From assembly GCF_018446385.1 (NCBI RefSeq), contig NC_056001.1:8327600-8391599 (forward strand): a DNA stretch of 64,000 nucleotides, written 5' to 3'. The notes beneath the pieces are model-generated. The model saw only the letters and a list, made by a program, of their open reading frames with translations, was not told the DNA's origin and made no database searches. Of this stretch, positions 8,761-64,000 are shown one piece after another. This DNA is from Zingiber officinale. Its lineage: Eukaryota; Streptophyta; Magnoliopsida; Zingiberales; Zingiberaceae. Made by a program: the position numbers and the translations under genes. The first letter of the stretch is position 1. Each line of letters starts with the position of its first letter.

Positions 8761-9152
8761 GTGACGGATTTCACCTTTTACAAAATCTATTATATTAAAA
8801 TGGCTAGCTTCAGTTTCCTAATTACTCTCTTTTAATGGTATGAGGTAGTTGTGGAGGGTCACCAAGTCATGGGTCACCAAGATGGCTGATTTCACCTTTT
8901 ATAGAATCTATTAGGTTAAAATAGAGGCCCAGACAAAAAGCTATATATATACACATTAACTTCTGGCCTAAAATTTTAAATATGCATTTAAGAATTTATT
9001 TCTTAGAGATAAAAATAATACAATAAATGGTTAGTTTCAGTCCTCGTGCATTTATTTTTAATTTGATCATGCCAGATTTTGTATAATTATTTTCATCGAT
9101 AAAAAAAAAGAGAGTATATAGTGACTCACATTGGGTAGATTATAATTAAAGT

Positions 9153-10735
9153 TATTGGTGCAATATTTCCTAGGTCAAAGTTGACTTGGTTGACTGAGCT
9201 TGAATTGGTTTAAGCTCGAGTCTTGATGTTTGACAATACATGGAGATTGCAGGTGCAATTGTTCATGTGGGAGATGTTGAAGGAGAGTCAAGTAGGTCAA
9301 GGTTAACTGGATACTTGATTGGAAATCCTGGTGAGTGAAGTCAGGTGAAAGTCCTAACTGGGAGGTTAGGCAGAGTGGAGAATCCTGGTGAGTGAAGCCA
9401 GGTGAAAGTCCTGGTGAGTGAAGCCAGACAGTTGTGGAAAGTCCTGGTGAGTGAAGCCAGACAGTTGTGGAAAGTCCTAGTGAGTGAAGCTAGGCAGAAG
9501 GAAAATCCTCGTGAGTGAAGCCAGGCAGATGAGAAGTCCTAGTGAGAGGAGTTAGGCAGAAGGGAAGTTTTGGTGAGTGAAACCAGGCAGATGAGAAGTT
9601 CTAGTGAGTGAAGGTAGGTAGAATGAAAGTCCTGGTGAGTGAAGCCAGACAGATGTGAAGTCCTAGTGAGTGAAGCTAGGCAGAAGGGAAGCCCTGGTGA
9701 GTGAAGCCAGACAAAGGAAATCCAGATGAGTCAAGGTTGACCAAACATCTGGTGAATGTCCAAGTAGGTCAAAGGGATTGACCGGACACTTGGCACAAGG
9801 AGAAAAGTCCAAGTGGGTCAAAGGGATTGACCAGACACTTGGTGAGGGAGTCCTGGCAGGTCAAGGGTGACCAGATGCTAGCCATGATGTACCAACAGGT
9901 CATGGTTGACCGGATGTTGGTTTAGGGGACTTTGGACTTATTTTTGGGTAAAAACCTGGAGCTAGATCGATCAGTCGATCGATTGACTCATGCCCAATTG
10001 ATCGGCTGATCGATTGGGCGAGCCCCCGCGACAAGCCTCATCCCAATCGATCAGTGGATCGATTGGGAGAAGCTCGCGATCACAAAGAATGTCTCTGGAT
10101 CGATCGGTCGATCGATTCAGAGCCTCCAATCAATCGGGAGATCGATCCAAGCAATTCCCGAGAGCACAGAGGCGCGCTGGATCGATCGGCCGATCGATCC
10201 AAAGCCTCCCCAATCGATTGGGAGTAATCCAATCGATTAGGATTCGACCGTTGGCGCAGATATTAGCCGTTGGCGAGCGTTTCTTTGGCACTTCTTCGAT
10301 TCCACTCTACGGGTGATCACGGCACAGCTCCACAACGATCTTTTCTTCCTCACCGCCAGTTCTTGGAGGCTCATCCAAGTCAAGAGGTGAGTTGCAATAA
10401 GAAGAAGAAGAAGCTAGGATGTTCATTGTAATCTTGTAAGATTCATTTGTATTTTGCTTCTTTCTTTCTCATTGTTATATTGTGAGGTTGTAGCGCTTCT
10501 CCGCCTTCGGTAGTTACCGAAAAGGAGCGTTTACATAGTGGAGGGTGCGTGAGTGTGTAGATCCTTGGACTAGTCACCTCTTCTTGAGGTAGATACCAAG
10601 TAAATCCCTAGAGTTAGTGTTGTTATGTTGTTTCTTGTATTTTTCGCTGCTATCATCTTGAATAAACAAGCAACGACGAGCACGAGATCGCGCCGAGCTA
10701 TTCACCCCCCTCTAGGTACATTTTCGGTCCCAACA
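9153..10735 (+). repeat. 5' LTR of the gag-only element
   Basis: It begins TATTGGTGCAAT (TGTTGGTGCAAT in the 3' LTR) and ends GGTCCCAACA. From about 9325 to 9720 it is a ~30-bp tandem array of CCTGGTGAGTGAAGCCAGG and CCTAGTGAGTGAAGCTAGG units. Compound inverted repeats follow (9722-9920), then ATCGATC palindromes (9961-10230), and a U5 with CTATTCACCCCCC near 10698-10715. At 1583 bp it is shorter than its partner because it holds fewer array units. Confidence 0.93.
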
Positions 10736-10736
10736 A

Positions 10737-10752
10737 GTGGTATCAGAGCATG
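10737..10752 (+). promoter_or_regulatory. Primer-binding site (initiator tRNA-Met type)
   Basis: GTGGTATCAGAGCATG starts one base after the 5' LTR. TGGTATCAGAGC is the complement of the plant initiator tRNA-Met 3' end, which primes minus-strand DNA synthesis. Confidence 0.9.
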
Positions 10753-10858
10753 GTTGCTCTTCACCGGAATCATCGCCGGAAGGGCCAAAAAGCTAGAGGG
10801 TGAAGAAGTTGCAGCAATTCTACAAGTCGAAGATTTCATTCAACAAGCTCAATTTCAA

Positions 10859-11863
10859 ATGGAATTTCAAGATGGACTTGAATTCGATACAAGGGTGCCT
10901 TCACCGTTCACAATGACAAGCTTCGATTCTTGGAAATCAAGAATCGAGAATTTTCTTATGATGGAGATAGAGCAATGGTTTGTTCTCATGGAAGGTTTCA
11001 AGGCTCCAAGAAATTCAAAGGGCAAAATCCTCAAAAAGAGTAAATGGAGCCAAGATCAAACTCAAAGGTGCGAGGTGAATGACAAGGTAACCAAATTATT
11101 GGTTAATTTATTGCCAAGCACCATTCTTTGCAAAATTGGAGAATTTGAAGATGCAAAGGAATTGTGGAGCAAGTTGGCCAAACTTCATGAAGAACCCTCC
11201 ATTGTACCGAATCAAGATAAATCCAAAGAGGGCAACTCATTGGAGCGAGACCAAGAGCAAGAGGACTCCGAAGTTGAGAGATGCTCAACTTCCGAAGAAG
11301 AAGAAGAAGTCCAAAAAGTCTCATCTTCAAATGAATACAATGAAAAAGGCAAAGAGGGAGCATACTCTTTGTTCCATATACAAGATGAAGATGAAGAAGC
11401 CTCCTCTAGGATTGAGGGGAAGCGACTTTCGGTGACATCGGATCAAGAAGAAGGAGAAGCCTCCACATCCGGGTTAAGAGAAGAAGACGATGAAGAAGCT
11501 TCCACCTCCACAAGTCAGGTCAAATATGTTGGAGGAGTATCAATGTCGAATCAAGAGGAAGCCTCTACCTCCGGATCCAAAGGAGAAAGTGCCATCCCTA
11601 CACATGAAGGTATAACTAGTTCAATTAAAAATAAAAATCACATTATATGTTTTGAGTGTAGGGAACATGGGCACTACAAGAGCAAGTGCCCTATATTGGC
11701 CAAGAAGAAGGGCCAAGTAGCACCTAAGGGCAAGGAGAAACCCAAGGAGACCATCCCTATTATAAAGAAGAGCAAGGAGCACATTGTGTGCTTCTCTTGC
11801 AATCAAAAGAGACACTATCGTAGTCAATGTCCCAAGAGGAAGAAAGCGGTCAAGGTTCAATGA
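10859..11863 (+). CDS. Intact Gag with two CCHC zinc knuckles
   Basis: An open frame of 334 codons from the chosen ATG. The frame is open further upstream but runs back into the LTR, and this ATG precedes the first Gag-like residues. The N-terminal part (SFDSWKSRIENFL, then a KLLVNLLPSTI...ELWSKLAKLHE segment) matches the copia Gag capsid family (UBN2-like). Residues about 120-255 are a very acidic, Ser-rich linker with repeated EASTS motifs. Two CX2CX4HX4C knuckles follow at about 264-277 (CFECREHGHYKSKC) and 311-324 (CFSCNQKRHYRSQC). Gag would assemble virus-like particles in the cytoplasm and package element RNA. No stop or frameshift is present, unlike the gag copies near 54.5 kb and 62.7 kb, so this copy is younger or better preserved. 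Confidence 0.85.
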   Translation: MEFQDGLEFDTRVPSPFTMTSFDSWKSRIENFLMMEIEQWFVLMEGFKAPRNSKGKILKKSKWSQDQTQRCEVNDKVTKLLVNLLPSTILCKIGEFEDAKELWSKLAKLHEEPSIVPNQDKSKEGNSLERDQEQEDSEVERCSTSEEEEEVQKVSSSNEYNEKGKEGAYSLFHIQDEDEEASSRIEGKRLSVTSDQEEGEASTSGLREEDDEEASTSTSQVKYVGGVSMSNQEEASTSGSKGESAIPTHEGITSSIKNKNHIICFECREHGHYKSKCPILAKKKGQVAPKGKEKPKETIPIIKKSKEHIVCFSCNQKRHYRSQCPKRKKAVKVQ

Positions 11864-13769
11864 GGAAGCACAACTCAAGGGGGAGCCTCTAAGGTAAAAC
11901 GCAAGGTATCATTTATTGAGCCTATCCCTTTAAACAATGGTAAAAAGCATGGTAATTCAAATTTTTATCATTTTAATGCTATTTACCATAAAAATAGGAA
12001 GTATGATGCCATTCAAGAAAAACATGTGGTTCTACATGCTAAAACTACCATACCTAGGGTTAGGAAGGTAGATGAAAATCTAGGCAAGGAAACTAAGAAT
12101 TTTAGTTATAGGTCTAGAAATAAAAATGCTCATGGATTCATTGAAAAATAAAAAACTAAGGATTTAATGATGAAAAATCAAGTCTTGAGGTCAAGACTTG
12201 ATAAATTAGAAAAGATCCTAAAAATGATGGAAAGTATCCTAAAGGGCAAAATGAGCAAAACTTAGATTTAGGACATCAAAGTTCATCCAAGGGTAATAGA
12301 GGTTTGGGATACAAATCTAAAACAAAAAAGGATGTGCCGTCTTACCATAGAGTTCCATATAGCTATGGAACTAATCCTAGGCTAGTAGTCAAGTCAAAAA
12401 TACAAGGAAAATTATCCTTAGAAGTATTTTTGCAACAACAAACATGACTAAGACTTCTAAGAAGTCTAAGAAAGTCACTAGGAAGGTCACAAGGGAAGCA
12501 ATCCCTAGAGTTGACCTAGAAAAAGTGACCAAGGCTTCTAAGAAGCCTACCAAGGTCATTAGGAAGGTATCTAGGGAGGCTATCCCTAGTGAGTACCTAG
12601 AGCATCCAAGGAGCACCAATAGGTTTTGGGTTCCTAGGAGCATTTTCTCTATCCCATAGATGAGTTAGAGAGTGTCAACTTCGATTAGAAGGGTAGTTAA
12701 CCCAACTTTGATGAAGTTGACACTCGGAGGGTATTAACCTTTGAAAATGAAAAGAATAAACGGTTACTCTTGAAGAGACTAAAATGTGTCATATTTTGAG
12801 AAATTGGATGTAATCTTAAGTGACACAAATTGGGAAAATCATAAGAACTACCAAGTTGAGATTTTGGTATGTTCTTAGGGAATTAAAGGCAATCTAGGCC
12901 TTAACTCAAACTGTTACTCTTTTGGAAGAGTAAATTGTGTCAAAATTTGAGGAATATGCTTAATTTAAATTGACACAAAATTTATAAAAGAAAAAGAAAT
13001 GTCAAATTAGGTTTTGGCATTTTCTTGGGAAATATTGGGCAATCAAGGTTTAAACTTTAAGTTAGCTAAGGTTTAAGGATACTTAGATAGTTAATCTAGG
13101 TATTCTATTTATGCTAATTTGTTATGCTTTGTTTGTCCATCATATGTCATGACATCATATTTATTTTTGTATTCATGTTTTATTATGAAAAATATAAAAA
13201 TACCATCTTATGTCATACATACATCATGTAGTTATAGGAAATTTTCTTTTGAGAATTATTCATCTTTGATGTATGTTATAACGCATCATGCATTATTTTA
13301 ATTCTTTGCAAATTAAGAACAAATAACATTCATTAGCAAGTAATATTCTTGGTGGATGTTCCTAACCTCAAAATACCTAGATAGATATGCATGATCCCTA
13401 TATTAGAGCAAAACTAAAGTTTACATCTCACTAAAGAACTATAAGGTGACTTGTATGTGTTTTTGTACACATTAGATGCAAGTGAGATGTTAGGATGATG
13501 AACAAAACTCAAGATGTTGATTCATTGCATTTTTATGAGTTTTAGATTCATCAAAACACATAGTTATGTGTTTTCCAATCATTGGGAAAGCTAATGTACA
13601 AGTCATGTGCATTGAGCTCAAAGAATATGGTTGGATATTGGTTTTGAAAATGATTTTAAATATGCTTTGGAAAACCTTGATGAAGACTATCTTTTGATAG
13701 TAATCATCATTGAATAGTTGAGTACAAACTTGGAAGAAAACACTAAACTTTTTACAAGTTTCCAAGTTT
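11864..13769 (+). other. Non-coding internal DNA replacing pol, with a Gag-tail relic
   Basis: Directly after gag the sequence still resembles the C-terminal Gag extension of larger copia elements. The frame at 12444-12659, with Lys-rich TKxSKK repeats ending in EHPRSTNRFWVPRS, is such a relic. Further right are AT-rich stretches with loose repeats (TGTTACTCTT...GAGTAAATTGTGTCA near 12730-12990) and no RT, integrase or RNase H motif. Confidence 0.7.
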
Positions 13770-13774
13770 GTGTC

Positions 13775-15193
13775 TGATCCTGTCTGAGAAGCCTGACAAA
13801 ATGGAAAGCTGGGAGAAAACCTACTGCTGATGAAGAATAATACCTGTAGAATACTGATCCGAGAAACCCAAAGCGGATCTGGGAGAATGAAGTCAAAGAA
13901 TGCCCTCCTTATGCGAAGATCTAAAGACGAAAGGAAAGCTTTGATGAAGAAAATCGAGATCTGGAGCTTCCAAGGCTTCCTACGCACAAGAGACCAACCA
14001 GCACTATTGTCAGTGACCTAAGACCGAGGTGGGAATCCCTGGCTAGGCCCTCCGACGCTCAAGTCAGTGATCTCTCCTTTTTGTGTGGAAAAAACCAGGA
14101 AGAAGAAGAAGATGAACAATAGTTGAAAACTAGGGTTGTGAGTGTGAGCATCAACGTGAACATACCTGGCCAACAGAGAGGATTCCCCCTTTTATACCAC
14201 TTCATATAACCTCCGTAGTCATGAAGTGGACCCCGGTTTGTTAGAGTTTGTTATGAGATGACGTAAGCCACGTACTTGCAGAAAATGGCTTTTAAGAAAT
14301 CTTTTTTGTACCCCAGATGTACCTTTTTTGTCGTCTAGTACCTGCAGAAGAGTTTAGAAACATTATTTCGGCCGAGTTAGTCAACTTGTTATACGATTAC
14401 ATAAAGCAAATATTTTCATAAGCTATTCATAAATATCCTTAAAATGTTTATTCCCGTCCTGTCCTATAAGTTATATTTTATCACCCTTGTTTGGTTATCC
14501 TATCTCCACTATGTTGTGGACAACCCGATATTATACTATGTTTTGTATCGGTCGGGATTGACTCTAGATTTCGTACAGGCGGGTTATTATTTTTATTTAA
14601 CACATGTCCTCTTCGTCTGATAATATATTATAAATCCTGTACTGTCTTGTAGTTGCTCATTCTCGGACAATCATATACATCCGCCTGATATTAGTCTATA
14701 TTCGCATGTGCTAGCTCAGACAATCCTGGCCGATATTGGTCTTTCTTTCTTAAGTTATATCCCGGCCGATATTAGCCTAGCCTTTCTTTAAGATATTGTC
14801 CCGGCCGATGTTGACCTATATTTTCTTAAGTGTGTTACCTCGTTCGAGATTTGCCTATATTTCCTTAAGCATGTTGTCTCGGACGATATTAGCCTACCCT
14901 TCTCAAGATGTACTCCGACCGGTATTAGCCTATCTTTTCTTTAAGGTATTATCCCGACCGGTGTTGGCCTATCTTTTCTTTAAGGTATTATCCCGGCCGG
15001 TGTTGGCCTATATTTTCTTAAGCGTGTTATCTCGTCCGATATTTGCCTATATTTCCTTAAGCATGTTGTCCCAGACGATATTAGCCTACATTTTCTTAAG
15101 CCCGATATCCCGACCGATATTTACATTGCTTAATTCTGCTATCTCTTTTCTTTCCCCTTTTCTCCGGGGACCTACTAAACCTAACCCATATCA
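13775..15193 (-). mobile_element. Solo LTR (gypsy-like), reverse orientation, TSD GTGTC
   Basis: The 1419-bp block starts TGATCCTG and ends CATATCA, flanked by GTGTC at 13770-13774 and 15194-15198. Removing it rejoins the internal region of the surrounding element. On the - strand, a TATAAAAGGGGG promoter motif near 14190-14200 shows the LTR faces left. The CAGTGACCTAAGACCGAGG block resembles R/U5 sequence of gypsy LTRs. Only one LTR and no internal region is present, so it probably arose by LTR-LTR recombination. About 14735-15130 is a ~47-bp tandem array (CCCGGCCGATATTAGCCTA). Confidence 0.88.
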
Positions 15194-15354
15194 GTGTCAA
15201 TCGTTGAAAATAGAAAGTATTTTCATAGAAAACTATTTTCCCTTGATAGTATATGCCCTAAGGAATGTCTACATGAATTTTTATGATTTTTCGATTTTTG
15301 TAGAATTTTAGGGGAGTTTCTGAAATTCACTGAAATAAATTTTCAGTTTTTCAG

Positions 15355-15535
15355 AGCTCCAATTGATCACCCGATCGATTGGAGTGCCTCAATCGATCGG
15401 GCGATCGATTGAGAAGAGTTTTCCCGCAAGCAGAAGCTCGCTGGATCGATCAGTCGATCGAACCACGCAGTCTGAATCGATCAGTGGATCGATTCAGATG
15501 AGTTCAATCGATTGGAACCCAACTCCAATCGATTG
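15355..15535 (+). repeat. GATCGAT palindrome cluster in the internal 3' region
   Basis: Repeated ATCGATC...GATCGAT inverted motifs (for example CAATCGATCGG and CGATCGATTG near 15391-15412) resemble the palindrome array inside the element's LTRs but lie well upstream of the 3' LTR. Confidence 0.75.
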
Positions 15536-15851
15536 AGGATGCTGATTTTGGTTGGGAAAGTCTGATTTCAGCTTTTTGAACTACCTTTAGTCTAGGTAAC
15601 CATTCCTTACCCCTCAAAACATATTTATATATATTTAGGTGGAGTTTTCATGATGAAAACAAGGATAGATTGGTTAAGGAAGACTAAGTAGAGGTTCGGT
15701 TTCAATATTGAATTTTTGAACTTCAAAACTTCTAAATTTGGGTTTCCTATATGTTTAGGGATTTCAAGTCATTGTTGGTACAATGACAGAAGTAACGTGC
15801 ATGTCTTTAGGGGGAGTTACTCTTTAAGGACATGAAAATCTATTTTTCATA

Positions 15852-16094
15852 CACCTTGGAAGGTGGTTAATCTTCTTTAGCGAAAATGCTCAAGGTTGGG
15901 CATTTGAATATAATGGAGAGTGAATATCTTCATTATTCAAATGGTGTATGCTCACGGATGAGCATTTGATGACAATGAAAGGTATGAGACTTTCATTTGA
16001 ATCGTGTGTGAATATACCAAGTGGTATATGCTCAAGGATGAGCGTTAAGAAGAATAAAGGGTATGAGACCTTCGTTATTGTGTTGTGAATAACG
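15852..16094 (+). other. Chain of stem-loops upstream of the 3' LTR
   Basis: Consecutive inverted repeats occupy this stretch. Examples are CACCTT/AAGGTG (15852-15865), CATTTGAATA (15901-15910) with TATTCAAATG (15934-15943), TGCTCA/TGAGCA (15949-15964), AATGAAAG/CTTTCATT around the loop GTATGAGA (15974-15997), ATATACCA/TGGTATAT (16012-16029), and CGTTATT/AATAACG (16073-16094). Two successive units share the same loop with differing stems. The position, 240-480 bp before the polypurine tract, would place it in the genomic RNA. Confidence 0.7.
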
Positions 16095-16316
16095 AGTGAA
16101 GTTGTAAACAACGTTGGGTAACTCTTCAGGGAGAGAGTTTTTTGATGTGTGCAAATAGGGGGAGAATGTAGGGTTTAAGTTAGACCTTCATTACCTAAGA
16201 GGGAGTTTGCCCTCTAGGAAAGGAGGAGAATGAAGAGAATCCTCATTCATATATTGACATGAAGGAGGTTGAGACTATGAGATTAGCCTAACTTAAAGGA
16301 GGTATTGTCAAACATC

Positions 16317-16330
16317 AAAAAAGGGGAGAT
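16317..16330 (+). promoter_or_regulatory. Polypurine tract of the gag-only element
   Basis: An A-run followed by GGGGAGAT abuts the 3' LTR start at 16331, the expected plus-strand primer position. Confidence 0.85.
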
Positions 16331-18108
16331 TGTTGGTGCAATATTCCTTAGGTCAAAGTTGACCTGGTTGACTGAGCTTGAATTGGTTCAAGCTCGAGTC
16401 TTGATGTTTGACAATACATGTAGACAATACATGGAGATTGCAGGTGCAATTGTTCATGTGGGGAGATGTTGAAGGAGAGTCAAGTAGGTCAAGGTTGACT
16501 GTATACTTGACTGGAAAATCCTGGTTAGTGAAGTAAGGTGAAAGTCCTAACTGGGAGGTTAGGCAGAGTGGAGAATCCTGATGAGTGAAGCCAGGTGAAA
16601 GTCCTGGTGAGTGAAGCCAGGTAGTTGTGGAAAGTCCTAGTGAGTGAAGCTAGGCTGAAGGAAAGTCCTGGTGAGTGAAGTCAGGCAGATGAGAAGTCCT
16701 AGTGAGTGGAGCTAGGCAGAAGGGAAGTCCTGATGAGTGGAGCTAGGCAAAAGGGTAGTCCTGGTGAGTGAAGCCAGACAGATGAGAAGTCCTAGTTAGT
16801 AAAGCTAGACAGTTGTGGAAAGTCTAGGTGAAAGTCCTGGTGAGTGAAGCCAGGCAGTTGTGGAAAGTCCTAGTGAGTGAAGCTAGGCAGAAGGAAAGTC
16901 CTGGTGAGTGAAGTCAGGCAGATGAGAAGTCTTAGTGAGTGGAGGTAGGCAGAAGGGAAGTCTTGGTGAGTGAAGCCAAACAGATGAGAAGTCCTAGTGA
17001 GTGAAGCTAGGCAGAAGGAAAGTCCTGGTGAGTGAAGTCAGACAGATGTGAAGTCCTAGTGAGTGAAGCTAGGCAGAAGAGAAGCCCTGGTGAGTGAAGC
17101 CAGGTAAAGGAAATCCAGATGGGTCAAGGTTGACTAGACATCTGGTGAAAGTCCAAGTAGGTCAAAGGGATTGACCGGATACTTGGCACGAGGAGAAAAG
17201 TCCAAGTGTGTCAAAGGGATTGACCGAACACTTGGTGTGGGAGTCCTAGCAGGTCAAGGGTGGCCGAATGCTAGGCATGATGTACCAACAGGTCATGATT
17301 GACCGGATATTGGTTTAGGAGACTTTGGACTTGGTTTTGGGCAAAAACCATGAGCTGGATCGATCAGCCGATCGATTGGTTCATGCCAATTGATCGGCTG
17401 ATCGATTGGGTGAGTCCCCGCGAAAAGCCTCCTCCCAATCGATCAGTGGATCGATTGGGAGAAGCTCGCGATCGCACAGAATAGCTTTGGATCGATCGAG
17501 CCGATCGATCCAAGCAATTCCCGAGAGCACAGAGGCGCTCTGGATCGATCGACCGATCGATCCAAAGCTTCCCCAATCGATTGGGAGCAATCCAATCGAT
17601 TGGGATCCGACCGTTGGTGCAGATATTAGCCGTCGGTGAGCGTTTCTTCGGCACTTCTTCGATTCCACTCTACGGGCGATCACAGCACAGCTCCACAGCG
17701 ATCTTTTCTTCCTCACCGTCAGTTCTTGAAGGTTCTTGGAGGCTCATCCAAGTTAAGAGGCGAGTTGCAATAAGAAGAAGAAGAAGCTAGGGTGTTCATT
17801 GTAATCTTGTAAGATTCATTTGTATTTTGCTTTTTTCTTTCTCATTGTTGTATTGTGAGGTTGTAGGGCTTCTCTGCCTTCGGTAGTTACCGAAAAAAAG
17901 TGTTTACATAGTGGAGGGTGCGTGAGTGTGTGGATCCTTGGACTAGTCACCTCTTCTTGAGGTGGATACCAAGTAAATTCCTAGAGTTAGCGTTATTATG
18001 TTGTTTCTTGTATTTTCCGCTGCTATCATCTTGAAGAAACAAGTAACGACGAGCACGAGATCGTGCCGAGCTATTCACCCCCTTATAGTTACATTTTTGG
18101 TCCCAACA
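16331..18108 (+). repeat. 3' LTR of the gag-only element
   Basis: Starts TGTTGGTGCAAT and ends TTGGTCCCAACA. It has the same order of parts as the 5' LTR: the ~30-bp array (about 16505-17115), compound inverted repeats (17113-17310), ATCGATC palindromes (about 17350-17610), and U5 with CTATTCACCCCC. Extra array units account for most of its greater length (1778 bp). Confidence 0.93.
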
Positions 18109-18425
18109 AAAGTATGATCCACACTATTAAATGATCAACAATAACTAAAGCAATGCTCATACGTTAACCAATAAATCCAACAAACTTGCTCAATTCTTCA
18201 AGAAGACTTGGTGTTTAGTTGTATCTAATCAAAAGAGTATTACAAAAATCTAAATATATAAGTAAGTTTTCTTGCTGCCTTACATTTCGTTCGATAATAT
18301 TAACAAACTTTCATTTAACAAACTGCTGATCTTAAATTTCAAATAATAATAATGGCTTATATTTCCTAGATTGCATCCTCTTGATATCTCAATTCTCAAC
18401 TACTTAATCTTCTTAGATTCTTTAA

Positions 18426-27262: not shown

Positions 27263-29321
27263 ATGGCTGATTTTGCTCCAGCGACAAATTCAGCTATTCA
27301 AGTTTCGTTAGATTCAAATGAAATCCCAGAACAGATAAGGGATAAAGGGGATAGTGTGAATAATAATGCGACTGGGGATAATAATTTAAGTCCTAAGTTA
27401 AAAAACAAAAGAGATCTCTTGTATGGTCAGAAATGATTGAGGTTGAGGATCCAAAAGGTGATAAGTATAAGTGCAAACACTGTCAACTATTCCTTGCAAA
27501 AATGAAGACAGGTACTACAACATACTTAAAACGACACTTGGATCATTATGCTAAACACTTAGAGTCTAAAAAGAAACTTAAAGATAAACTCAAACAACAA
27601 CAACTATTGTTAGGATTTGAAAGTGTTGATACAACTATGCCACCTTTGTTACATGATGGAAAATTTTATATGGAACGCATGAAAGAAGCAGCTGCCTCAT
27701 GAATTTTAATGCATGAACATCCATTTACATTATTAGAAGAAGAAGGTTTTAATATGTTTTGTAGACGTGGAATGCCTGAGTGGACTCGTATATCACGAAC
27801 AACAGGAAAAAAGAGTTGTTTTGCAATATATGAAGCCGAGACGAAAAAATTACATAGTTTGCTGAAAAATGTAACAAAGATCAGTCTCACAACAGATTTG
27901 TGGAAGTTAAAAAATCAAAAAATAGAGTACATGGTTATCACTGGTCATTGGATTGACTCTTCTTGGAAATTGAATAAACGTGTTCTCAATTTTTTTAATA
28001 TACCTCCTCCACGTGGTGGTCCTCAAATTTCAGATACCCTTCTTAAGTGTGCAAGGACATGGGAGATTGAAAATAAAATATATACTGTTTCTGTTGATAA
28101 TGCGAGTGCTAATGATGCTGCAATTAAATATATGAAGGAAGATTTCTTGAAATAAATAACAATCTGATTTATGGGGGAAAATTATTCCATGTTCGATGTT
28201 GTGCACATATTTTAAATCTTATAGCTCAGGATGGTCTCAATGAAATTAAGGATATTATTCATGTCATTCATCAAAGTGTGGATTTCATTAGAAGAACAGA
28301 TGCTAGACTCATTCAATTTGCTGATATTGTGAAGCAATTGAAGTTACAAGAAAGAAAATTGGTTGATGATTGTAAAACAAGATGGAATTCAACTTATGAG
28401 ATGTTGAGAACAACAATTGCTTTCAAAGAAGTTTTTCCAAGATTTAAAGATCGGGAACCTAACTATGTTCATTGTCCAACAGAATCTGATTGAGAGAAAT
28501 TGCTTAAAGTATTTTCAGTTTTGAAAGTTTTTTATCAAGCAACCAAAATTATTTCTGGAAGTGAGTATCCTACTACCAACCTTTTTCTAAATGAAGTTTA
28601 TCGAGTAAAATTAATCTTGGATGAGAAATCTTGTGATGAAGAAGAGTTTATTAGAAAAATGGTGCAAAAAATGAAGGAAAAGTTTGATAAATATTGGGGT
28701 GAATGCAATTTATTAATGGCTGTTGGTTCAGTTTTGGATCCTAGATGCAAAATGCGATTACTTGAATTCACTTTTCCTAAACTTTATAACACATTTGAAT
28801 CAGAGAGTAATATTAGAGAGTTCCAAAAGCATTTGTATGCAATTTATAAAGAATATGCAGATGCAGGAATTGAAAATCTTCAAGGATCGAAATCCAATTC
28901 TGAATCTCAATCTAGCAACATCTCAACTCAAAATATTAGAGAGCAAGCTACCTTTTCTTCTGGATGGTCGGAGTTCTCATCTTATTTAAAAGAAATTGAA
29001 ATGGTACAACCTGAAAAATCTAAGCTAGATGTGTATTTAGAGGAAGGGTGTCATAGGCATAATCCAAATGATGCATTTGATGCTCTTGGTTGGTGGAAGC
29101 TTAATACATACAAATTTCCAGTGTTGTCAACTTTGGCTAGAGATATATTAGCAATACCCATTACAACAGTAGCTTCAGAGGTAACCTTTAGTGCTGGAGG
29201 TCGTGTCATTGACAAGTATCGTACTTCTTTAGCTCCTGCAACAGTAGAAATGCTAATGTGTGGTGGAGATTGGTGTCGAAAACGACATGGAGTGACTAAA
29301 AAGACTAAGGTATGCCACTGA
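27263..29321 (+). pseudogene. hAT transposase (BED finger, RNase H-like core, hATC), broken
   Basis: The gene reads as a plant ZBED/RICESLEEPER-type hAT transposase. It has an ATG at 27263, a BED finger (CKHC...YLKRHLDH, about 27470-27550), a catalytic-region segment with SLTTDLW and SVDNASAND, CKTRWNSTYEM, and a C-terminal hAT dimerisation domain (YKFPVLSTLARDILAIP to AGGRVIDKYRTSL, about 29110-29280). Breaks are a frameshift just before 27433, TGA at 27700-27702, a frameshift near 28153, and TGA at 28491-28493. Both TGA codons sit where the family usually has Trp. It cannot encode a working transposase. Confidence 0.9.
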
Positions 29322-44282: not shown

Positions 44283-46122
44283 TGTTAGGATCCTTCGTAC
44301 GGCTAGAGAGGGGGGTGTGAATAGCCGACCCCAAATCGCTCGCGTTTCTTCCTACACTTCGTTAGCGCAGCGGAAAAATAAACTAGAAACGAAAGGAAGA
44401 ATATCAAACCTTAACACAGCGATGTACGAGGTTCGGAGATGATACTCCTACTCCTCGGCGTGTTCGTAAGGTGGACGAGCCCTGTCAATCCGTCGGTGGA
44501 TGAATCCCCGGAAACCCGGCTAAAATATACTCCTTCTGGGTGGAGAAACCTCGCCACAAAATCTTGCAACAGCAAGCAAAGAGTACACGAGATACAACAA
44601 GAAATACAAGACAATATGAATACAACAACACTAGCTTGCCTTCTCGTTGTCGACTGAAGTCCCAGATGAAGCAACAACTTCACGGACGGATGCCAACAAG
44701 CAACTCAGCAGCAGCTGATCCAGTCGTGGAATGAAGCTCACGCGAAGCTTGCGAAGAAGAGCTCAACGAAGCTCAAGCACCAGAACCTAACAGAAGTAGT
44801 GGAAGAAAAGAAGTGCAGCAGCCTCGACCCCTTTATACCGCGAAGAAGACAATGAAGAAACTAGCCGCTGCGCAACGGCTAGAACCGATCGATCCGTGGA
44901 CCGATCAGCTGATCGGTCCCGCATCGACCGCACGTAGCCTTCAGCGTACTCGATCGGTCTGGACCGATCACCGATCGGTCCACGGACCGATCCCAACTCG
45001 GCTCCCTTCGCGACATCGCCTCTCGATCGGCCGCCACGACCGATCAGGGAAGCTCCTGATCGGTCCACAGACCGATCAGGCGTCTTTCTCGCGGCTACTG
45101 ATCACCTTCTGATCGGTCTGCAGACCGATCAGATAACTAGTGACTTGGTTTTTGCCCAAGCCAAGTCCCAAGCCTTCCAAACCAACATTCGGTCAACCTC
45201 GACCTGTTGGTACTTCATTCCTAGCATCTGGTCACTCCCTTGACCTGCTAGAATTCCCACCAAGTGTCCGGTCAATTCCTTTGACCCACTTGGACTTTCC
45301 TCTTCGTGCCAAGTATCCGGTCACTCCTATGACCTACTTGGACTTCCCATCACCAGATGTCCGATCACCCTTGATCCATCTAGATTTTTCCCTTGCCCGG
45401 CTTCACTCACCAGGACTTTCCATCTGCCTAACATCCCAGTTAGGACTTTCTCACTGCCTGGCTTCACTCACCAGGACTTTCCAACTGCCTAACATCCCAG
45501 TTAGGACTTTCTCACTGCCTGGCTTCACTCACCAGGACTTTCCACACTGCCTAACATCCCAGTTAGGACTTTCCCACTGCCTGGCTTCACTCACCAGGAC
45601 TTTCCAGCTGCCTAACATCCCAGTTAGGACTTTCCCTCGTGCCAAGCTCCCTGCTTGGACTTCTCCGTGCCAAGTCTCCATACTTGGACTTTTCCAGTGC
45701 CAAGTCTCCATACTTGGACTTTTCCCGTGCCAAGTCTCCATACTTGGACTTTTCCCGTGCCAAGTCTCTATACTTGGACTTTTCGCGTGCCAAGCTCCCT
45801 GCTTGGACTTTTCCAGTGCCAAGTCTCCATGCTTGGACTTTTCGCGTGCCAAGCTCCCTGCTTGGACTTTTCCCGAATCAGGTCAACCAGGTCAACCTTG
45901 ACCTAAGGTTGCACCTACAATCTCCCAAACACCTATTCTTGTCAAACATCAAGAATAGAACTCTCTCACGAGTGTCAAACATCAACATGCAACTCAACTA
46001 GGTCAACCTCGACCTAAGGTTGCACCGACAATCTTCCTAAGTCAAACATCAAAATACAACTCGAGTCAAGTCACCTCGAGTCGGGTCAACCAGGTCAACC
46101 TTGACCTAAGGTTGCACCAACA
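44283..46122 (-). mobile_element. Solo copia-type LTR, reverse orientation, TSD TATGT
   Basis: Plus-strand ends TGTTAGGATCC and GCACCAACA, flanked by TATGT at 44278-44282 and 46123-46127, inside the integrase-RT hinge of the copia element. A minus-strand TATAAAGGGG box lies near 44828-44838, GATCGGTC/GACCGATC palindromes at 44885-45132, and tandem units at 45160-45890. The units include CTGCCTGGCTTCACTCACCA, the complement of the array unit in the 9153 element, so the two LTRs are relatives. The 253-codon frame through the array is a repeat artefact. Confidence 0.92.
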
Positions 46123-46127
46123 TATGT

Positions 46128-48066
46128 AAGCAATGATAATAATAGTGTAAACTGCTATAATTAAGGAAAACACATTGTAGTGAATGAGAGTTAAGTTTGT
46201 GTTTAGAGTAGGGGTGTAACCATGGATAACATGCACAACTAAAAATTCGAAGGAAAGTGTAATAAGGAGTTTGATTATAAAATTGTTTAAAAGGACACTT
46301 ATGATTGAGCAATGGAGTAGAAAGTCAATTTATGAGATATACGACAGAGCCAACAACTTCATCCTAAAATTTATACGGAATTGATGCATAATGGAGAAGT
46401 ATCAAAGCAGTTTCAACTATATGTCTATATTTTCTCTTAGCAGAGCCATTTTGCTCCGGAGTATAAGGACAAGAGATACAATGAACAATTCCATAGGAGA
46501 CAATCTGACGATGGAGAACTTGATACTCGCCTCTCCAATCAGAATAAATAGAGATTATTTTATGATTAAAACACCATTAACTTGTTTTTGAAAATGACAA
46601 AATATGTCAAATGTATCATATTTCCTTTCATAGGATAGAGCCAAATATATTTATTAAAATGATTGATGAAGGAAATATAATATAAGAATCCTTGGTTAGA
46701 TAATATAGGTACAAGGCCTCAAACATCAAAATAAATTATTTCAAATGGAAAACTAGAAACTTGATGGGAAGATTAAAAAGGCAACTTATGACTTTTAGCT
46801 TCCATACATGCCCTACATAAATGAAATGGAGAGGAGGTGAAGGAAGTAGGTAAACCATACTTATTGATGATCGTATGAACAATGCGAAGAGAAGGATGAC
46901 CAAGTCGAGCATGCCAAGCTGGTTTATTTGTGCGATAACCAATACAAACTTTGATGGAAGAACTTTAAAGATAATAGAGACCATTTTTATGCCACCATGA
47001 AATAAGATAATATTTGTTCCTATATCTTTTATAAGATAATGATTGTGATGAAATTCAAACACGATATTATTGTCAAAACAAAAATTGACGTGTAGAAAGT
47101 AAATTTTTGGTAATAGATAGAACATGAAAGATATCGCGCATGTGAAAAGTACGATTAGATAAATGAATGTATATATTTCCAAGATTAGCAATTTACAAAC
47201 TTGAACCATCGGCTACTTGAACCGTATCTGAGTCATAATACGACATTACGTCTATAAGGATATTATAATATGATGTGACATGATGTGTTACTCCAGTGTC
47301 AATATATCATTCTGTAGATGAAACTCTAGGGGTTTACCACGAGTAGGCACAGATGAGAGGGCTTTAGGATAGACTTGTGAAGCTGTTGATTGTCTTGAAG
47401 CTGAACCGTTGCCTACTTGTACAGTGTGACCATGATAAGAGGAGGCTTCTATAAGAATGTCATAATCTGATGTAACGTGATGAGTTGCTCCAAAATCTAG
47501 ATGCCATCCTCCAGCAAAATTTGAATCAAATCTCTTATAACATTGATGAGCAAAGTGATTATTCTTGAGACAAATCTGACAACATCCTCGTCCAGGACCT
47601 TGTCCTTGTCCTCGTCCACCTTGATTTCCTTGATTTTGTTGATGATGGGTAGTACTATCAATCTTGTAAGTCGTATGTGCCGAAAGAGCTAGAGAATCTG
47701 AGACCCTTTGAGAGTGTAATTGTAGAAGTATCTCATGCGAAGAGAGCAAGCCATAAAGGGTATCGAGTGACACTTAATCTATGCGAGTAGTTACACTAGG
47801 AATAAAGCTGTCATATTTAGGTCCTACTCCGCAAGAACATATATTAGTAAATCTGGATCTGAAATTGGATGACCAATCGCGGCCAAATCATTGACAATGG
47901 TCTTGATTGATTGCATATATTCATTGATAGACTTGTCTCTTCATTGCACTAATTGTAATTGCATGTGAAGTTAAAGAACATGTGCTTGAGAGTGTGAAGC
48001 AAAGGTTCGAGCAAGAGCTTCCCATATTTGACGAGAGATAACAAGCCCTACAATTGTAGGAAATAT
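46128..48066 (-). pseudogene. Copia gag C-terminus, protease and integrase remnant
   Basis: 47288-47773 holds a Gly-rich linker, one CCHC knuckle (CQICLKNNHFAHQC) and the protease-type block GGWHLDFGATHHVTSD, where the usual active-site DSG reads DFG. 46106-46312 holds the integrase end (TPYYTFLRIFSCACYPWLHPY). The integrase core between them is frameshifted. Confidence 0.75.
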
Positions 48067-52489: not shown

Positions 52490-53040
52490 TCGCCCCAGGT
52501 TGAAAAAAAACTCTTCCTTTGTAGTACTATTATAAGTATCCATAGAATAAGAAGTCAAGTGCTTCACATTGAAGACATCAGAAGTTTTCAAATGACTAGG
52601 AAGGTTAACCTATAAGCATTATCATTGATCTACTACAATTTCACATGGTCCAATCTTCCGATCTTTTAACTTATTATACTCGCTAATAAAAAAATGATTA
52701 TTAGTTAATACAGCTCAGACAAAATCTCCAACCTCAAAAGTGCCTGACTACGATGACTATCAATCTGAGTCTTGTACTTGGTATTTGTCTTAAGAATTGT
52801 CAGTTTCACCTGCTCATGAATGCCCTAAAGATGTTGTGTCATCTCATTTGTTTTAGGACTAAATCGTCCTATACATGGAATAGGAGCTAAGTTTATAACT
52901 CCGGATGGGTTCTTCCCATAGATAATCTAAAAAGGACTCAAACCTATGGTCTTATTTCTCGATCTGTTATAAGCAAACTTTGCTTGAAGCAACGATAAGT
53001 CATACTGCTTTGGCTTAGTTCATGTTAGACATCTCAGAAG
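52490..53040 (-). pseudogene. Ty3/gypsy integrase C-terminal remnant
   Basis: Read on the - strand: FAYNRSRNKTIGLSPF, IIYGKNPSGVINLAPIP and, after stops, GPCEIV with NLPSHLKTSDVFNVKHLTSY, the C-terminal part of a gypsy integrase. The frame stops at the LTR retrotransposon inserted at 53041 and continues at 59999. Confidence 0.8.
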
Positions 53041-54291
53041 TGTTGGTGCAGGAAGCATCCGACGATCGAACCCGTGTTTTGATAATGGCAAAGGGTTCAA
53101 AGTTAAGTTGTTTTGTGATCTAACAGTTTGAATGAGATTGCAGGAAAGTCCTAAGTGTACTTAGGCAAAAGTCTTAACTGCGGTTAGGCAGGTGGAAAAC
53201 CCTAGGGGGTGGTAACCCTAGGTCATAGGGGGTGGTAACCCTATGTGGAAAGTCTTGGCGGGTCGAGAGCTTCAGGCAAAAGTCCTTTGGGGTGGTAACC
53301 CTAGGTGAAAAGTCCTGGTTTCGCGAACCAGGTGGAAGACTGGAAGGGTCGGGGAGCGGGCGTCCAGCAGAAAGTCCGGAAGCATCGAGCGCCAAGCAAA
53401 AGTCCAGTCGATCTGGAGGATCGTGCTGGCATCAGGTAAATCTCGCGAGTGGAGTAGGTGAGGACGCGTTCCCCGCAGAGGGAACAGTAGGCGTTGGGTT
53501 GACCTAGGGTTTCCGGTAGGAAATCCAAAGTCAGACCCGGACAGTTTGGAGACTGTCAATATTTTATTTATGACTATTATGTGCTAACTTTGTTTTACAG
53601 GGTATGTGTTTGGGACTAACACATTTTGCAGGAACAAAGGAGCAAGTCACACCTCGGATGAACAGTGTCCGAGGCGCCTCCATGGAGCTTGGAGGCGCCT
53701 CGGGTGCAGAGTGTCAGCTGGCTGCGAAGAGGAGCTGGAGGCGCCTCGGACCAGCTCTTGGAGGCACCTTGGGCATGGAGGCGCCTTCAAGTGGATCAGA
53801 GGAGAAAAGTTCAGCGCTGATCCACACGGCTGACTCGACTCGTTGGAGGCGCCCTCAAGGAGCTTTGAGGCGCCTCCAACAGGCTATATAAGGGGATTTC
53901 GAGCAGCAAGTCAGATATTCGATTTAAAAGCAACCTTTCTACATCCTACTGCTCAAGAGACGCCCAAAAGTGTTGTAGCAATACCCTGACAACCCAGAGC
54001 CTTAATTTTGCTAATCTTGTTGTCGGTATAAGTTATTTTTAGTACACTTAATTGTAAACTCTTTATTGTACCAAACTTTCGATATTATAGTTGTTGCCCA
54101 CCGAAAGTGATCAACGATCGCGGGCCTTAGAGTAGGAGTCGCCACAGGCTCCGAACCAAGTAGCCACCTTGTGTTAGCATTCGCTCTTTTCTTTTCCGAT
54201 GCATTTTAATACTCGATACGTTTTAAATCGAACGAAATAGCCACTAGCGCTATTCACCCCCCCCCCCCCTCTAGTGTTTCTCGATCCAATA
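53041..54291 (+). repeat. 5' LTR of the second gag-only element
   Basis: 1251 bp, TGTTGGTGCAGG to CGATCCAATA. Order of parts: inverted-repeat cassettes (53150-53480), GAGGCGCCTC palindromes (53669-53880), TATATAAG at about 53885-53892, and U5 with ATTCACCCC and a C-homopolymer at about 54256-54269. Confidence 0.93.
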
Positions 54292-54547
54292 ATTGGTATC
54301 AGAGCGGGGTCGCTTCGATTTGGTGCAACCACCAATCAAGCACATTTTTTGTGTGGTTATTTTCAGTTTTACGGAGTCAATTAGAATTAGCCTAATAGCT
54401 ACATTCTAATTCTTTTTACGAATCAGTTTTTGCTCGAAATTGGTGCAACACCACTCGAGCTCGCTATTTTAACTTTATTCCCGCACTACTAATCCAAAAC
54501 TTAGTCTTGGAACATCTCGTTCTATTTTTTACGTGCATATTAACTAA

Positions 54548-56195: not shown

Positions 56196-56689
56196 GGCTA
56201 TGATCCAGGGGGAGCCAATAAAAAGACCATTTTTATTATAAAATAGAATTGTTTGATACATGTTTATTTTTTTATGATAAACATGCTTAGACTAGGATAG
56301 ATTAAGGACCTAGGCGTAATTTACACTTGTTTAATTAAACCTAGGGGTTTCAAAAGAAAAATTAAATATATATTTTCTTTGAAAGGCTCTGTCTAGAAGT
56401 GGTAGATGATCTCATATCCAAAAAGACCTAGTGCCTCGCTACAACCTGGGAGCCGATATTTGAAATGTATATTTAATTAACCTATTGAAAAACCTAAATT
56501 TAATTCAAATGTAAATTAATCCTTAGATATAATCTAAATTAAAGATAATCTCACAAAACTACATAGGATTCCATGATTGATACTTAGAATCGAGTGAGAT
56601 GGACCTAGGATGAACTTAGTCAAATATATTTAATCTAATTAATCAACCTTAATCAATCTAATAAATTTAATTTAATTAATTTAAATCCT

Positions 56690-57850
56690 TTAAAAATAAT
56701 TTTAAAAAATACTTTTAAAAAATAATTTTAAAAATCCTTTTAAAAATCATTTTAAAAAATCTTTTAAAAATTTTTTAAAAATATTTTAAAAATCATTTTA
56801 AAAATTTTAAAAAATCATTTTAAAAATTCATTTATAAATCTTTTAAAATATATTTTAAAAATGTTTTAAAAAATCATTTTTAAAATCTTTTGAAAATTAT
56901 TTAAAAAATCCTTTCAAAAACTATTTGAAAATGATTTAAAAATCATTTCAAAAATTATTTCAAAATTATTTTAAATATCCTTTCAAAAACTATTTGAAAA
57001 TTATTTAAAAATCCTTTTAAAAATTATTTAAAAATTATTTCAAAAATTATTTGAAAATTATTTAAAAATCATTTCAAAAATCATTTCAAAAACTATTTGA
57101 AAATTATTTAAAAATACTTTCAAAAATTATTTGAAAATTATTTAAAAATCATATTTGAAACTTATTTTAAAAATCTTTTAAAAATTATTTGAAAATTATT
57201 TAAAAATCATTTCAAAAATTATTTGAAAATTATTTTAAAAACCTTTTAAAAATTATTTTAAAATCATTTCAAAAATTATTTGAAAATTATTTTAAAAACC
57301 TTTTGCTTTCAAAAATTATTTGAAAATTGTTTAAAAAAAACCTTTTAAAAATTATTTGAAAATTATTTAAAAATCGTTTCAAAAATTATTTAAAAATCGT
57401 TTAAAAAATTATTTGAAAATTATTTTAAAAAATTTTAAAAATTAGTTGAAAATTATTTTAAAAACCTTTAAAAATTATTTGAAAATTATTAAAAATTATT
57501 TCAAAAATTATTTGAAAATTATTTAAAAATCCTTTTAAAAAATTATTAAAAAATCATTTCAAAAATTATTTAAAAATTATTAAAAAATAATTTATAAATT
57601 ATTTTAAAATCCTTTCTAAAATTATTTGAAAATTATTTTAAAAACCTTCTAACAATTATTTGAAAATTATTTAAAAATCATTTCAAAAATTATCTGAAAA
57701 TTATTTAAAAATCTTTTCAAAAAGTATTTGAAAATTATTCAAAAATCCTTTCAAAAATTATTTAAAAATCCTTTTAAATATTATTTGAAAATTATTTAAA
57801 AAATTTTTCAAAAATTATTTTAAAAAATTACTTTAAAAATAAAATATTTT
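56690..57850 (+). repeat. ~1.15 kb low-complexity AT array
   Basis: Dozens of degenerate units of AAAATTATTTGAAAATTATT and AAAAATCATTTC alternate with TTTTAAAAATCC forms, spaced about 20-30 bp. It occupies the position where pol would follow gag. No frame is open. Confidence 0.9.
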
Positions 57851-58754: not shown

Positions 58755-59993
58755 TGTTGGTGCGGGAAGCATCCGACGATCGAACCCGTGTTTTTGATAA
58801 TGGCAAAGAGTTCAAAGTTAAGTTGTTTTGTAATCTAACAGTTTGAATGAGATTGCAGGAAAATTCCAAGTGTACTTAGGCAAAAGTTCTAACTGCGATT
58901 AGGCAGGTAGAAAACCTTAGGGGGTGGTAACCCTAGGTCATAAGGGGTGGTAACCCTATGTGGAAAGTCTTGGTGGGTCGAGAGCTTCAGGCAAAAGTCC
59001 TAGGGAGTGGTAACTCTAGGTGAAAAGTCCTGGTGTCGCGAACCAGGTGGAAGACTGGAAGGGTCGGGGAGCGGGCGCCCAGTAGAAAGTCCAGAAGCAT
59101 CGAGTGCCAAGCAAAAGTCCAGTCGATCTGGAGGATCATGCTGGCATCAAGTAAATCTCCCGAGTGGAGTAGGTGAGGACGTGTTCCCCGTAGAGGGAAT
59201 AATAGGCATCGGGTCAACTTAGGATTTCCGATTGAAAATCCAAAGTCAGACCCGGACAGTCCGGAGTGTCAATATTTTATTTATGACTATTATGTGCTAA
59301 CTTTGTTTTGCAAGGTATGTGTTTGGGACTAACACATTTTGCAGGAACAAAGGAGCAAGTCACACCTCAGATGAACAGTGTCCGAGGCGCCTCCATGGAG
59401 CTTGGAGGCGCCTCGGGTGCAGAGTGTCAGCTGGCTGCGAAGAGGAGCTAGAGGCGCCTCGGACCAGCGCTTGGAGGCACCTTGGGCATGGAGGCGCCTT
59501 CAAGTGGATCAGAGGAGAAAAGTTCACCACTGATCCACACAGCTGACTCGGCTCGTTGGAGGCGCTCTCAAGGAGCTTTGAGGCGCCTCCAACAGGCTAT
59601 GTAAGAGGGTTTCGAGCAACAAGTCAAATATTCGATTTAAAAGTGACCTTTCTGCATCCTACTGCTCAAGAGACGCCCAGAAGTGAGGTAGCAACACCCC
59701 GACAACCCGGAGCCTTAATTTTGCTAATCTTATTGTCGGTATAAGTTATTTTTAGTACACTTAATTGTACCAAACTTTCGATATTATAGTTGTTGTCCAC
59801 CTGAAGCGAACAACGATCGCGGACCTTGGAGTAGGAGTCGCCACAGGCTCCGAACCAACTAACAACCTTGTGTTAGCATTCGCTCTTTTCTTTTCCGCTG
59901 CGTTTTAATACTCGATATGTTTTCAATCGAACGAAATAGTCACGAGCGCTATTCCCCCCCCCCCCCCCCCCTCTAGCGCTTCTCGATCCAACA
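58755..59993 (+). repeat. 3' LTR of the second gag-only element
   Basis: 1239 bp, TGTTGGTGCGGG to CGATCCAACA, same layout as its partner; GAGGCGCCTC palindromes at about 59384-59590 and a C-homopolymer of about 18 at 59954-59971. Confidence 0.93.
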
Positions 59994-59998
59994 AGAAG

Positions 59999-63246: not shown

Positions 63247-64000
63247 TGTTGGAACAATCTAGGTGCCGGAGCAATCTAGGTGCCCTAGGTTTTGATGTTT
63301 GGGCAAATATTTAAGTTAGGTTTATTATTGTATTTGATATGCATTGTGAGTGTGCAGGATATAGGTACAACAAGGAAAGTCTAAGTGTAATCTTGGCAGA
63401 GGAGAAAAGTCCAAGGATGAGTCTTGGGCGTGTAAGTCCAAGTATGTAGTCTTGGCAACGTAAGTCGAAGTGTGACTTGGCAATGGATGAAGTCCCGTAG
63501 GTGAGGAGCCTCTTAGCAAAGGAAGATCCGACAATGAGGACAAGGCCAAAGGAAGCTCCAGAAGGCAAGACGTGAAGGATGGGGAGACATCCGAGGGACG
63601 CGATGCTGATGGAGGAGGCTAGAAGGCTAGGTCTAGGTTGGTTGGGCGAGGACTAGTGCTGAGTGATTGTACTCGGGGAAAAATCCTATGGTTTTAGGAT
63701 TTACTGTAGCAGTACTGTAGTGACACTGTAGCTGTACTGTTGTGACACTGTAGCAGTTGATTGGTACACTGAAGCAGTCAACTGGTACACTGTAGCAGTC
63801 GACTAGTAGTCAACCGTTGGGTAACGGTTAGCTTCACTTAAAGGACTAGTCGACTAGTGCATACACCAGTCGACTGGTAGCGAGAAAACAGCTTAGTGTT
63901 TTCCTCTCGAGCTCTATTTAATAGAGCTCTGGGTGCTTGGACATGGTTGACGAAATATAGGTGGTTAACCCCTATTAGTAGTCTTCCAAAGCTTCCAAGC
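63247..64000 (+). mobile_element. LTR of a fourth copia-type element, cut by window end
   Basis: Starts TGTTGGAACAATC inside the gag of the 61675 element. It has CCAAG..CTTGG cassettes at 63380-63475, ACTAGTCGACTAGT and CCAGTCGACTGG palindromes at about 63840-63880, and TATTTAATAGAGC near 63907. It resembles the fragment at 24688. Confidence 0.75.

Follow-up and report, generated by a model that had tools for sequence, protein, structure and literature searches.

Palindromic arrays in the LTRs of Sireviruses, together with their strong predicted structure and a link to small RNAs, have already been published (PMC2829016; PMC5311732; PMC10760457; cited here and below from excerpts). For maize, the palindromes in the LTRs of these elements have been called hotspots of small RNAs (Bousios et al. 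2016, via PMC5311732), and the question has been raised as to why elements keep structures that possibly expose them to silencing (PMC10760457). The Sirevirus landmarks used in this study are taken from the excerpted account of Bousios et al. 2010 (PMC2829016).

Herein, we examine LTR cassettes in the window, i.e., the whole stretch of 64,000 nucleotides of Zingiber officinale DNA that was analysed. For one of its LTRs, an initial annotation had described an array of inverted-repeat cassettes with stems changing in concert, and had taken this to suggest selection for folded RNA or single-stranded DNA (ssDNA), or for a dimeric binding site. It seems that the cassettes were maintained in foldable form in the active element and that they decay in its dead copies.

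A Sirevirus-like element and related LTRs

As judged from its sequence, element A (Table 1) is Sirevirus-like by its LTR/PBS junction, PPT, inverted repeat, poly-C signal, and palindromic boxes. (i) The junction of LTR A with the PBS reads CA-AGTGG-TATCAGAGC (10734-10749), in keeping with the Sirevirus pattern CA-A[T/G]TGG-TATCAGAGC; element F has ATTGG-TATCAGAGC at 54292-54305, its LTR F1 ending in TA, not CA. (ii) The Sirevirus PPT, i.e., AGGGGGAG followed by AT/TG and with extra copies in the linker, was found in both elements: exact copies lie at 15809 and 16157 in element A, while in element F the PPT is exact at 58745, with more copies at 58321, 58539, and 58583. Two further exact octamers are located elsewhere in the elements (11878 and 56207). 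(iii) An inverted repeat of the Sirevirus kind surrounds the PPT and 3' LTR of element A, with arms read by eye as TATTGTCAAACATCAA (16303-16318) and TTGATGTTTGACAATA (16401-16416); the right arm lies 70 bp inside the LTR, compared to a published Sirevirus mean of 28 (PMC2829016, excerpt). (iv) The poly-C integrase signal CACCCC+ lies near LTR ends at 10703, 18076, and 54255, this being a loose pattern with 22 occurrences in the window when both strands are counted.

The TG with which LTR A started has decayed and is now TA. A 412-aa ORF (10625-11860) matches zf-CCHC above cut-off and Retrotran_gag_2 below cut-off. Downstream of this gag-like ORF, the interval 11864-14795 contains no plus-strand ORF of at least 110 aa (ATG, GTG, or TTG starts); given this gap, element A may be non-autonomous or decayed. 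The linker also has a ~39-bp tandem repeat (CCGGCCGATATT..GCCTA) at 14723-15121, which precedes the GATCGATC boxes.

Table 1. Positions of element A, related LTRs, and their cassettes in the window
Feature	Position	Strand	Details
Element A, Sirevirus-like Ty1/copia	9153-18108	+	TSD AAAGT read at 9148-9152 and 18109-18113
LTR A, 5' LTR of element A	9153-10735	+	86-89% identity to LTR B
Two-tier cassette CAAGTA..TACTTG enclosing GGTCA..TAACT	9289-9317	+	
~31-bp cassette array	9327-9711	+	12 TGAGTGAAG-type units and CCTAAC..GTTAGG (9353-9370)
Five two-tier cassettes (9722, 9760, 9809, 9852, 9892)	9722-9920	+	Variable outer stem round GGTCA..TGACC
Palindromic boxes, GATCGATC / CAATCGATTG type, family-specific	9960-10240	+	Comparable to Sirevirus RM boxes
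More GATCGATC boxes, linker upstream of 3' LTR	15360-15535	+	BLAST and reading
TATTGTCAAACATCAA arm, terminal PPT AAGGGGAG, and AT of attachment site	16303-16330	+	Read in sequence
Terminal PPT of element A, AAGGGGAG-AT-TG	16321	+	One mismatch to AGGGGGAG
LTR B, 3' LTR of element A	16331-18108	+	18 TGAGTGAAG-type units
LTR C, solo, related family	44283-46122	-	TSD ACATA; 17 perfect cassettes followed by CGGTC..GACCG boxes and TATAAA
LTR F1, 5' LTR of element F, third family	53041-54291	+	TSD AGAAG at 53036-53040 and 59994-59998
F1 cassettes	53150-53340	+	Including CCTAGGG..CCCTAGG (53201-53222) and CATAGGG..CCCTATG (53224-53245)
LTR F2, 3' LTR of element F	58755-59993	+	
LTR D cassettes, CCAAG..CTTGG type	63381-63475	+	LTR start 63248 by eye; window end cuts LTR D

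Similar cassettes are found in three more LTR types of the window, namely solo LTR C, element F, and truncated LTR D. The cassette frame in LTR D and element F resembles that of element A, with element F having other stems and loops; LTR C contains four TGAGTGAAG-type units beside CCTAAC, CCAAGT, and CCAAGC cassettes, and its cassette at 45836 is a C.A hybrid between two types. By BLASTN (E up to 1e-3), LTR A matches LTR C only at LTR A positions 3-106 and 167-804, the remainder of the two LTRs giving no mutual match. With similarity thus confined to the 5' part, the hairpin portion behaves as a module common to families whose promoter halves differ. The A-shared part of LTR C ends at LTR position 976 and is followed by other boxes, then by TATAAA at 1286; in LTR F1, cassettes end near 300 and TATATA is at position 845. 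A search for a TATA match in LTRs A, B, D, and F2 found none. Exact cassette patterns gave 0 matches against viral contigs, as did one pattern against a genome contigs collection; a gag query returned 10 pattern matches among viral contigs, with no relative among them.

Several other repeats and ORFs were noted in the window. The sequence in which solo LTR C lies looks, by eye, like a copia pol gene of the same strand, and the ORF at 47288-47773, upstream of LTR C, has Pol_BBD and zinc-knuckle matches, both below cut-off. Two more LTR stretches were seen by eye at 62100-62180 and 63750-63870, each with its own palindromic boxes (CCGGGGCGCCCGG and AGTCGACT-like). Between the LTRs of element F is an AT-rich tandem repeat of 11-bp period (56674-57840; ~1.15 kb), and ORFs 1044-1781 and 28500-29321 match Plant_tran PF04827 and hAT transposase families.

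Cassette frame, abundance, and folding

In each cassette, a purine-rich spacer (such as GGAAAAGT) precedes a stem of 5-7 bp, which usually begins with CC and ends with GG; stems found are CCTGG, CCTAG, CCTAAC, CCAAGT, CCAAGC, CCAGATG, CCTAGC, CCAACA, CCTAAG, and CCTAGGG. The motifs quoted in the initial annotation are all present, i.e., CCTAG at 9476-9480 with CTAGG at 9490-9494, CCTAAC..GTTAGG at 9353-9370, CCAGATG..CATCTGG at 9722-9752, and the two-tier stems CCAAGT..ACTTGG (9760-9793, round GGTCA..TGACC) and CCAACA..TGTTGG (9892-9920). Its division of the array units into CCTGG..CCAGG and CCTAG..CTAGG copies is correct in that both types exist, but only 3 of the 12 LTR A units are perfect, one as CCTGG/CCAGG (9384) and two as CCTAG/CTAGG (9476 and 9662); the remaining nine have one or two non-Watson-Crick pairs each. 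Across 34 TGAGTGAAG-type units (12 in A, 18 in B, and 4 in C), the 170 stem cells comprise 144 Watson-Crick, 12 G-T, 10 A-C, and 4 other cells; T6 does not vary, and G14 is almost invariant. With G-T mismatches about as frequent as A-C ones, there is no strand bias pointing to RNA. GC and AT stem types alternate within a 62-bp higher-order repeat of the 31-bp array, so its copies are not independent; the LTR B array also holds a 233-bp tandem duplication.

The array makes up the 5' part of U3 in Sirevirus-type LTRs, forming a train of short hairpin cassettes. The order in LTRs A, B, and C leads from cassettes to two-tier cassettes and on to family-specific palindromic boxes nearer the promoter.

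To measure abundance, perfect stems running C..G after A[AG]T were counted in chosen array stretches, with 200 dinucleotide shuffles for each. LTR A (9320-9940) has 6 such framed stems against a shuffle mean of 0.245, LTR B has 12 (mean 0.29), and LTR C has 17 (mean 0.185), the shuffle maximum being 2 in all three; LTRs D and F1 have 4 and 3 (shuffle maximum 1 for both), and shuffle means range from 0.085 to 0.29 across all arrays. The 2 framed stems of F2 equal, and do not exceed, its shuffle maximum of 2. By a count of any hairpin with arms of at least 6 in 500-base bins, LTR A is less striking: bins from 9000, 9500, and 10000 hold 3, 10, and 8 hairpins, the second of these just over the window 95th percentile of 9.65 (median 2). 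The LTR C bins hold 14 and 18 such hairpins.

In RNA folding, a check named with the original proposal, the arrays of LTRs A and C outdo 20 shuffles on either strand, with the better z score on the antisense strand (A: sense -3.1, antisense -5.6; C: sense -4.9, antisense -10.2). For individual cassettes picked as intact, 14 predicted RNA foldings (11 sense, 3 antisense) gave -3.5 to -15.0 kcal/mol, with all 11 sense-strand cassettes folding as drawn (-5.2 to -15.0 kcal/mol); DNA foldings (n=6) gave -1.9 to -9.3. The fold of the F1 cassette at 53201 was equalled by 17 of 200 RNA shuffles. On the sense strand, the TGAGTGAAG unit has an extra sixth U.G pair.

Stem changes between cassettes and between the LTRs of dead copies

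Covariation was judged by pair counts relative to shuffles and by column mutual information. For the 30 units of LTRs A and B, the top value (0.79) belongs to a predicted stem pair, L4-R2, with the next column pair at 0.46. For the 17 distinct sequences of the 31-bp array, three quantities exceed most of 500 shuffles, namely cells with two-sided change (7 vs 3.3 +/- 1.7, reached in 7 shuffles), the covariation score (0.356 vs 0.280, reached by 7), and paired cells (88.2% vs 85.0%, reached by 18), with the caveat that related sequences can beat shuffles without any structure. Pairs with two-sided change (2 vs 1.8 +/- 0.9) and pair types (7 vs 7.0) are ordinary. The AT stem type occurs with its own spacer type in 10 of 11 AT units, compared to 3 of 16 GC units (odd stem pairs being found in 3 of the 30 A and B units). 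As the AT stem travels with its spacer, most copies are accounted for by a higher-order unit having been duplicated, and the change from CCTGG/CCAGG to CCTAG/CTAGG in this array is essentially one event multiplied by duplication. This takes away part of the initial claim of concerted stem change; what speaks for the claim is the L4-R2 association, the three quantities that exceed most shuffles, three two-sided cassette pairs, and a permutation of arm matching.

Both-sided differences at one stem pair are displayed by three cassette pairs in three arrays, one per array. The two-tier difference CCAAGTA/TACTTGG vs CCAAGTG/CACTTGG is present in LTRs B and C and no longer in A: units 17153 and 17202 of LTR B have four differences, two of these paired; the LTR C pair with the both-sided difference is 45341 vs 45293; in LTR A, 9760 has lost the paired difference and now differs from 9809 at two sites, unpaired. 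In F1, CCTAGGG/CCCTAGG and CATAGGG/CCCTATG differ at exactly two paired sites. The chance of two random differences falling on one arm pair and still pairing is 0.004-0.010 per cassette pair, for pairs that were chosen by eye and of which the two-tier one has a composite as one member. Two of the three both-sided differences are transitions, which could come from deamination on both arms without selection.

In the permutation, type-level arms were defined from the spacer alone, and each was matched to the sequence downstream of it. The matching sum was 145 compared to 125.0 +/- 4.1 when permuted (0 of 20,000; 32 types, 72 intervals), and 77 compared to 66.2 +/- 3.1 after collapse to 17 types (13 of 20,000 permutations). 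Less striking is the number of types with at least 5/6 paired, at 15 of 32 (permuted mean 6.6, maximum 16) and, when collapsed, 7 of 17 (mean 3.1, maximum 10).

An element has two identical LTRs when it inserts, and differences between them arose later. For LTRs A and B, with cassettes matched by hand and six B units lacking an A partner (16636-16791) excluded, 18 of 106 pair positions in 19 cassettes have changed, 17 on one side and 1 on both sides but unpaired. For F1 and F2, 8 of 33 pair positions in 5 cassettes have changed, all one-sided; this comparison excludes the 53254 / 58969 unit, units beyond 53340, and the third GGTGGTAA copy (53284 / 58999), which has four differences and no compensated pair. 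Across the two LTR comparisons, compensation is seen at 0 of the 26 stem positions that changed. Arms thus mutate independently after insertion, which speaks against the initial interpretation, and complementarity was probably kept before it, in the replicating element.

A second comparison used the two-tier block at columns where A and B agree but differ from C (gapped columns dropped), giving 2/70 for outer arms, 4/52 for inner arms, 7/36 inside, and 16/90 for spacers. Outer arms contrast with spacer plus inside between families (2/70 vs 23/126, p=0.0014); post-insertion between A and B, the values are 5/70 vs 16/126 (p=0.34), and the combined McDonald-Kreitman-style table of these two levels is not significant (p=0.22).

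We consider a structure-level constraint in the active element to be the best reading of the cassettes, and hold it with about even confidence. During replication of the element, the cassettes would have stayed foldable as their stems changed; after insertion, copies decay without compensation. Such constraint may act by selection on folded nucleic acid, either RNA (U3 at the 3' end of genomic transcripts) or the corresponding cDNA, and the inner arms could bind WRKY factors in DNA. Selection for folded RNA or ssDNA, as first suggested, agrees with the foldability apparently kept pre-insertion, but the data also fit repair by template switching. A more far-reaching version, which we put forward only tentatively, is that a train of independent LTR hairpins is selected for shape only, with a fixed spacer and stems near-free in sequence if paired, as a structural RNA/cDNA device rebuilt in each Sirevirus family.

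In template-switch repair, an enzyme would copy one arm from the other in reverse transcription or replication, restoring palindromes without selection. The element goes through reverse transcription each cycle, and the process would leave just such two-sided single-pair differences. We nonetheless deem it unlikely: loops and spacers vary more between families than outer arms do, which would not be predicted from mutation alone, and the lack of repair in dead copies counts against host replication, not against reverse transcriptase. In the first 62% of the LTRs, moreover, the loop words TGAGTGAAG, GGTGGTAA, and AAAGGGATT were counted 27, 5, and 4 times in forward orientation and never in inverted orientation, with shorter words inverted there in loops or elsewhere (TGGGAT 1, ATGGAG 2, AGGGA 1). 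The loop-word argument is tempered by excerpts of PMC8794818, according to which inverted loops are seldom seen even in inferred cases of template switching. Isolated compensatory changes are, in the same paper, called uninformative about process.

The cassettes might instead be DNA-level regulatory repeats, i.e., enhancer units with inverted W-boxes or half-sites, their folding a by-product of dyad symmetry. The GGTCA..TGACC inner arms contain TTGAC, the core of the W-box. TTGACY occurs 15, 14, and 13 times in LTRs A, B, and C, against shuffle means of 2.2-2.7 (maxima 6, 9, and 8; 300 shuffles each), and these LTRs have 6, 5, and 5 inverted W-box pairs, i.e., 16 of the 19 in the window (0-5 in 20 window shuffles). 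The inner arms look like paired W-boxes and, in the two-tier cassettes, are mostly constant while the outer stems vary; published Sirevirus palindromes upstream of the TATA box, too, mainly match stress-related sites (PMC2829016, excerpt). Against this stand LTRs D and F, which carry cassettes without W-box excess (TTGACY 2 in D, 1 in F1, 2 in F2), and the many different outer and 31-bp stems, for which one dimeric factor is insufficient. The single dimeric binding site of the initial annotation was rejected as a candidate for all cassettes because the stem sequences differ, and for regulatory repeats in general we see little likelihood.

Quite improbable, finally, is the absence of any constraint, with two or more ancestral palindromic repeats having been duplicated as higher-order units and drifted, and with concert reflecting shared descent and methylation-driven transitions: the 62-bp period, the 233-bp duplication, the AT stem tied to its spacer, the ordinary number of pairs with two-sided change, the uncompensated post-insertion decay, and a CCTGG/CCAGG to CCTAG/CTAGG change that reads as the same C-to-T on opposite strands in the CAG context, which is methylated in plants, all suit it, but the family F pair is C-to-A with G-to-T and not deamination, the three by-eye pairs each differ on a paired site, and type-level arm matching beats permutation.

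Relationship to known systems

Structure-level constraint, as preferred here, has material for its further study in the locus itself: many different stems in one frame constitute a natural test of structure vs sequence, and the two LTRs of each dead copy are a built-in neutral control. Among the titles and abstract starts listed, mostly from non-subscription literature, none was found on stem covariation in plant LTR cassettes, and five sequence words from the cassettes had no full-text literature match. Stems with compensatory changes are shared with RNA hairpins made by template switching (Monttinen and Loytynoja 2022, PMC8794818, excerpt); those were inferred for microRNA and rRNA genes, whereas no inverted copy of the long loop words was seen here in the first 62% of the LTRs.

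The closest likeness is to the Sirevirus RM palindromes (PMC2829016, excerpt), which are high-copy symmetric boxes in the upper LTR half, upstream of the promoter, with extra linker copies (in env-bearing elements) and with boxes that mostly differ between elements. Their class has at least 8 symmetric boxes, mostly in the upper LTR half, and LTRs A and B have 12 and 18 TGAGTGAAG-type units, many of them imperfect. A CGG-CCG core marks the RM boxes of all elements but Tnd-1, and the TATA box follows a short way downstream of them (PMC2829016, excerpt). In contrast, the cassettes here have CC..GG stems, the CGG-CCG core being absent from all cassette stems examined; they lie 5' of RM-like boxes, not shortly upstream of the TATA box in LTRs C and F1, which bear one; and they comprise several stem types per LTR, two-tier forms included. 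The GATCGATC boxes of element A and the CGGTC..GACCG boxes of LTR C resemble ordinary RM boxes. As with maize Sirevirus palindromes (PMC5311732, PMC10760457, excerpts), the array consists of palindromes in the LTR cis-region, of strong predicted structure and high sequence variability; the maize motif, CACCGGACNNNGTCCGGTG, is unlike the cassette stems found here. Ultimately, its stem core, its position, and the multiplicity of its stems set the array apart from published Sirevirus palindromes, of which it is a variant, not a new kind of system.
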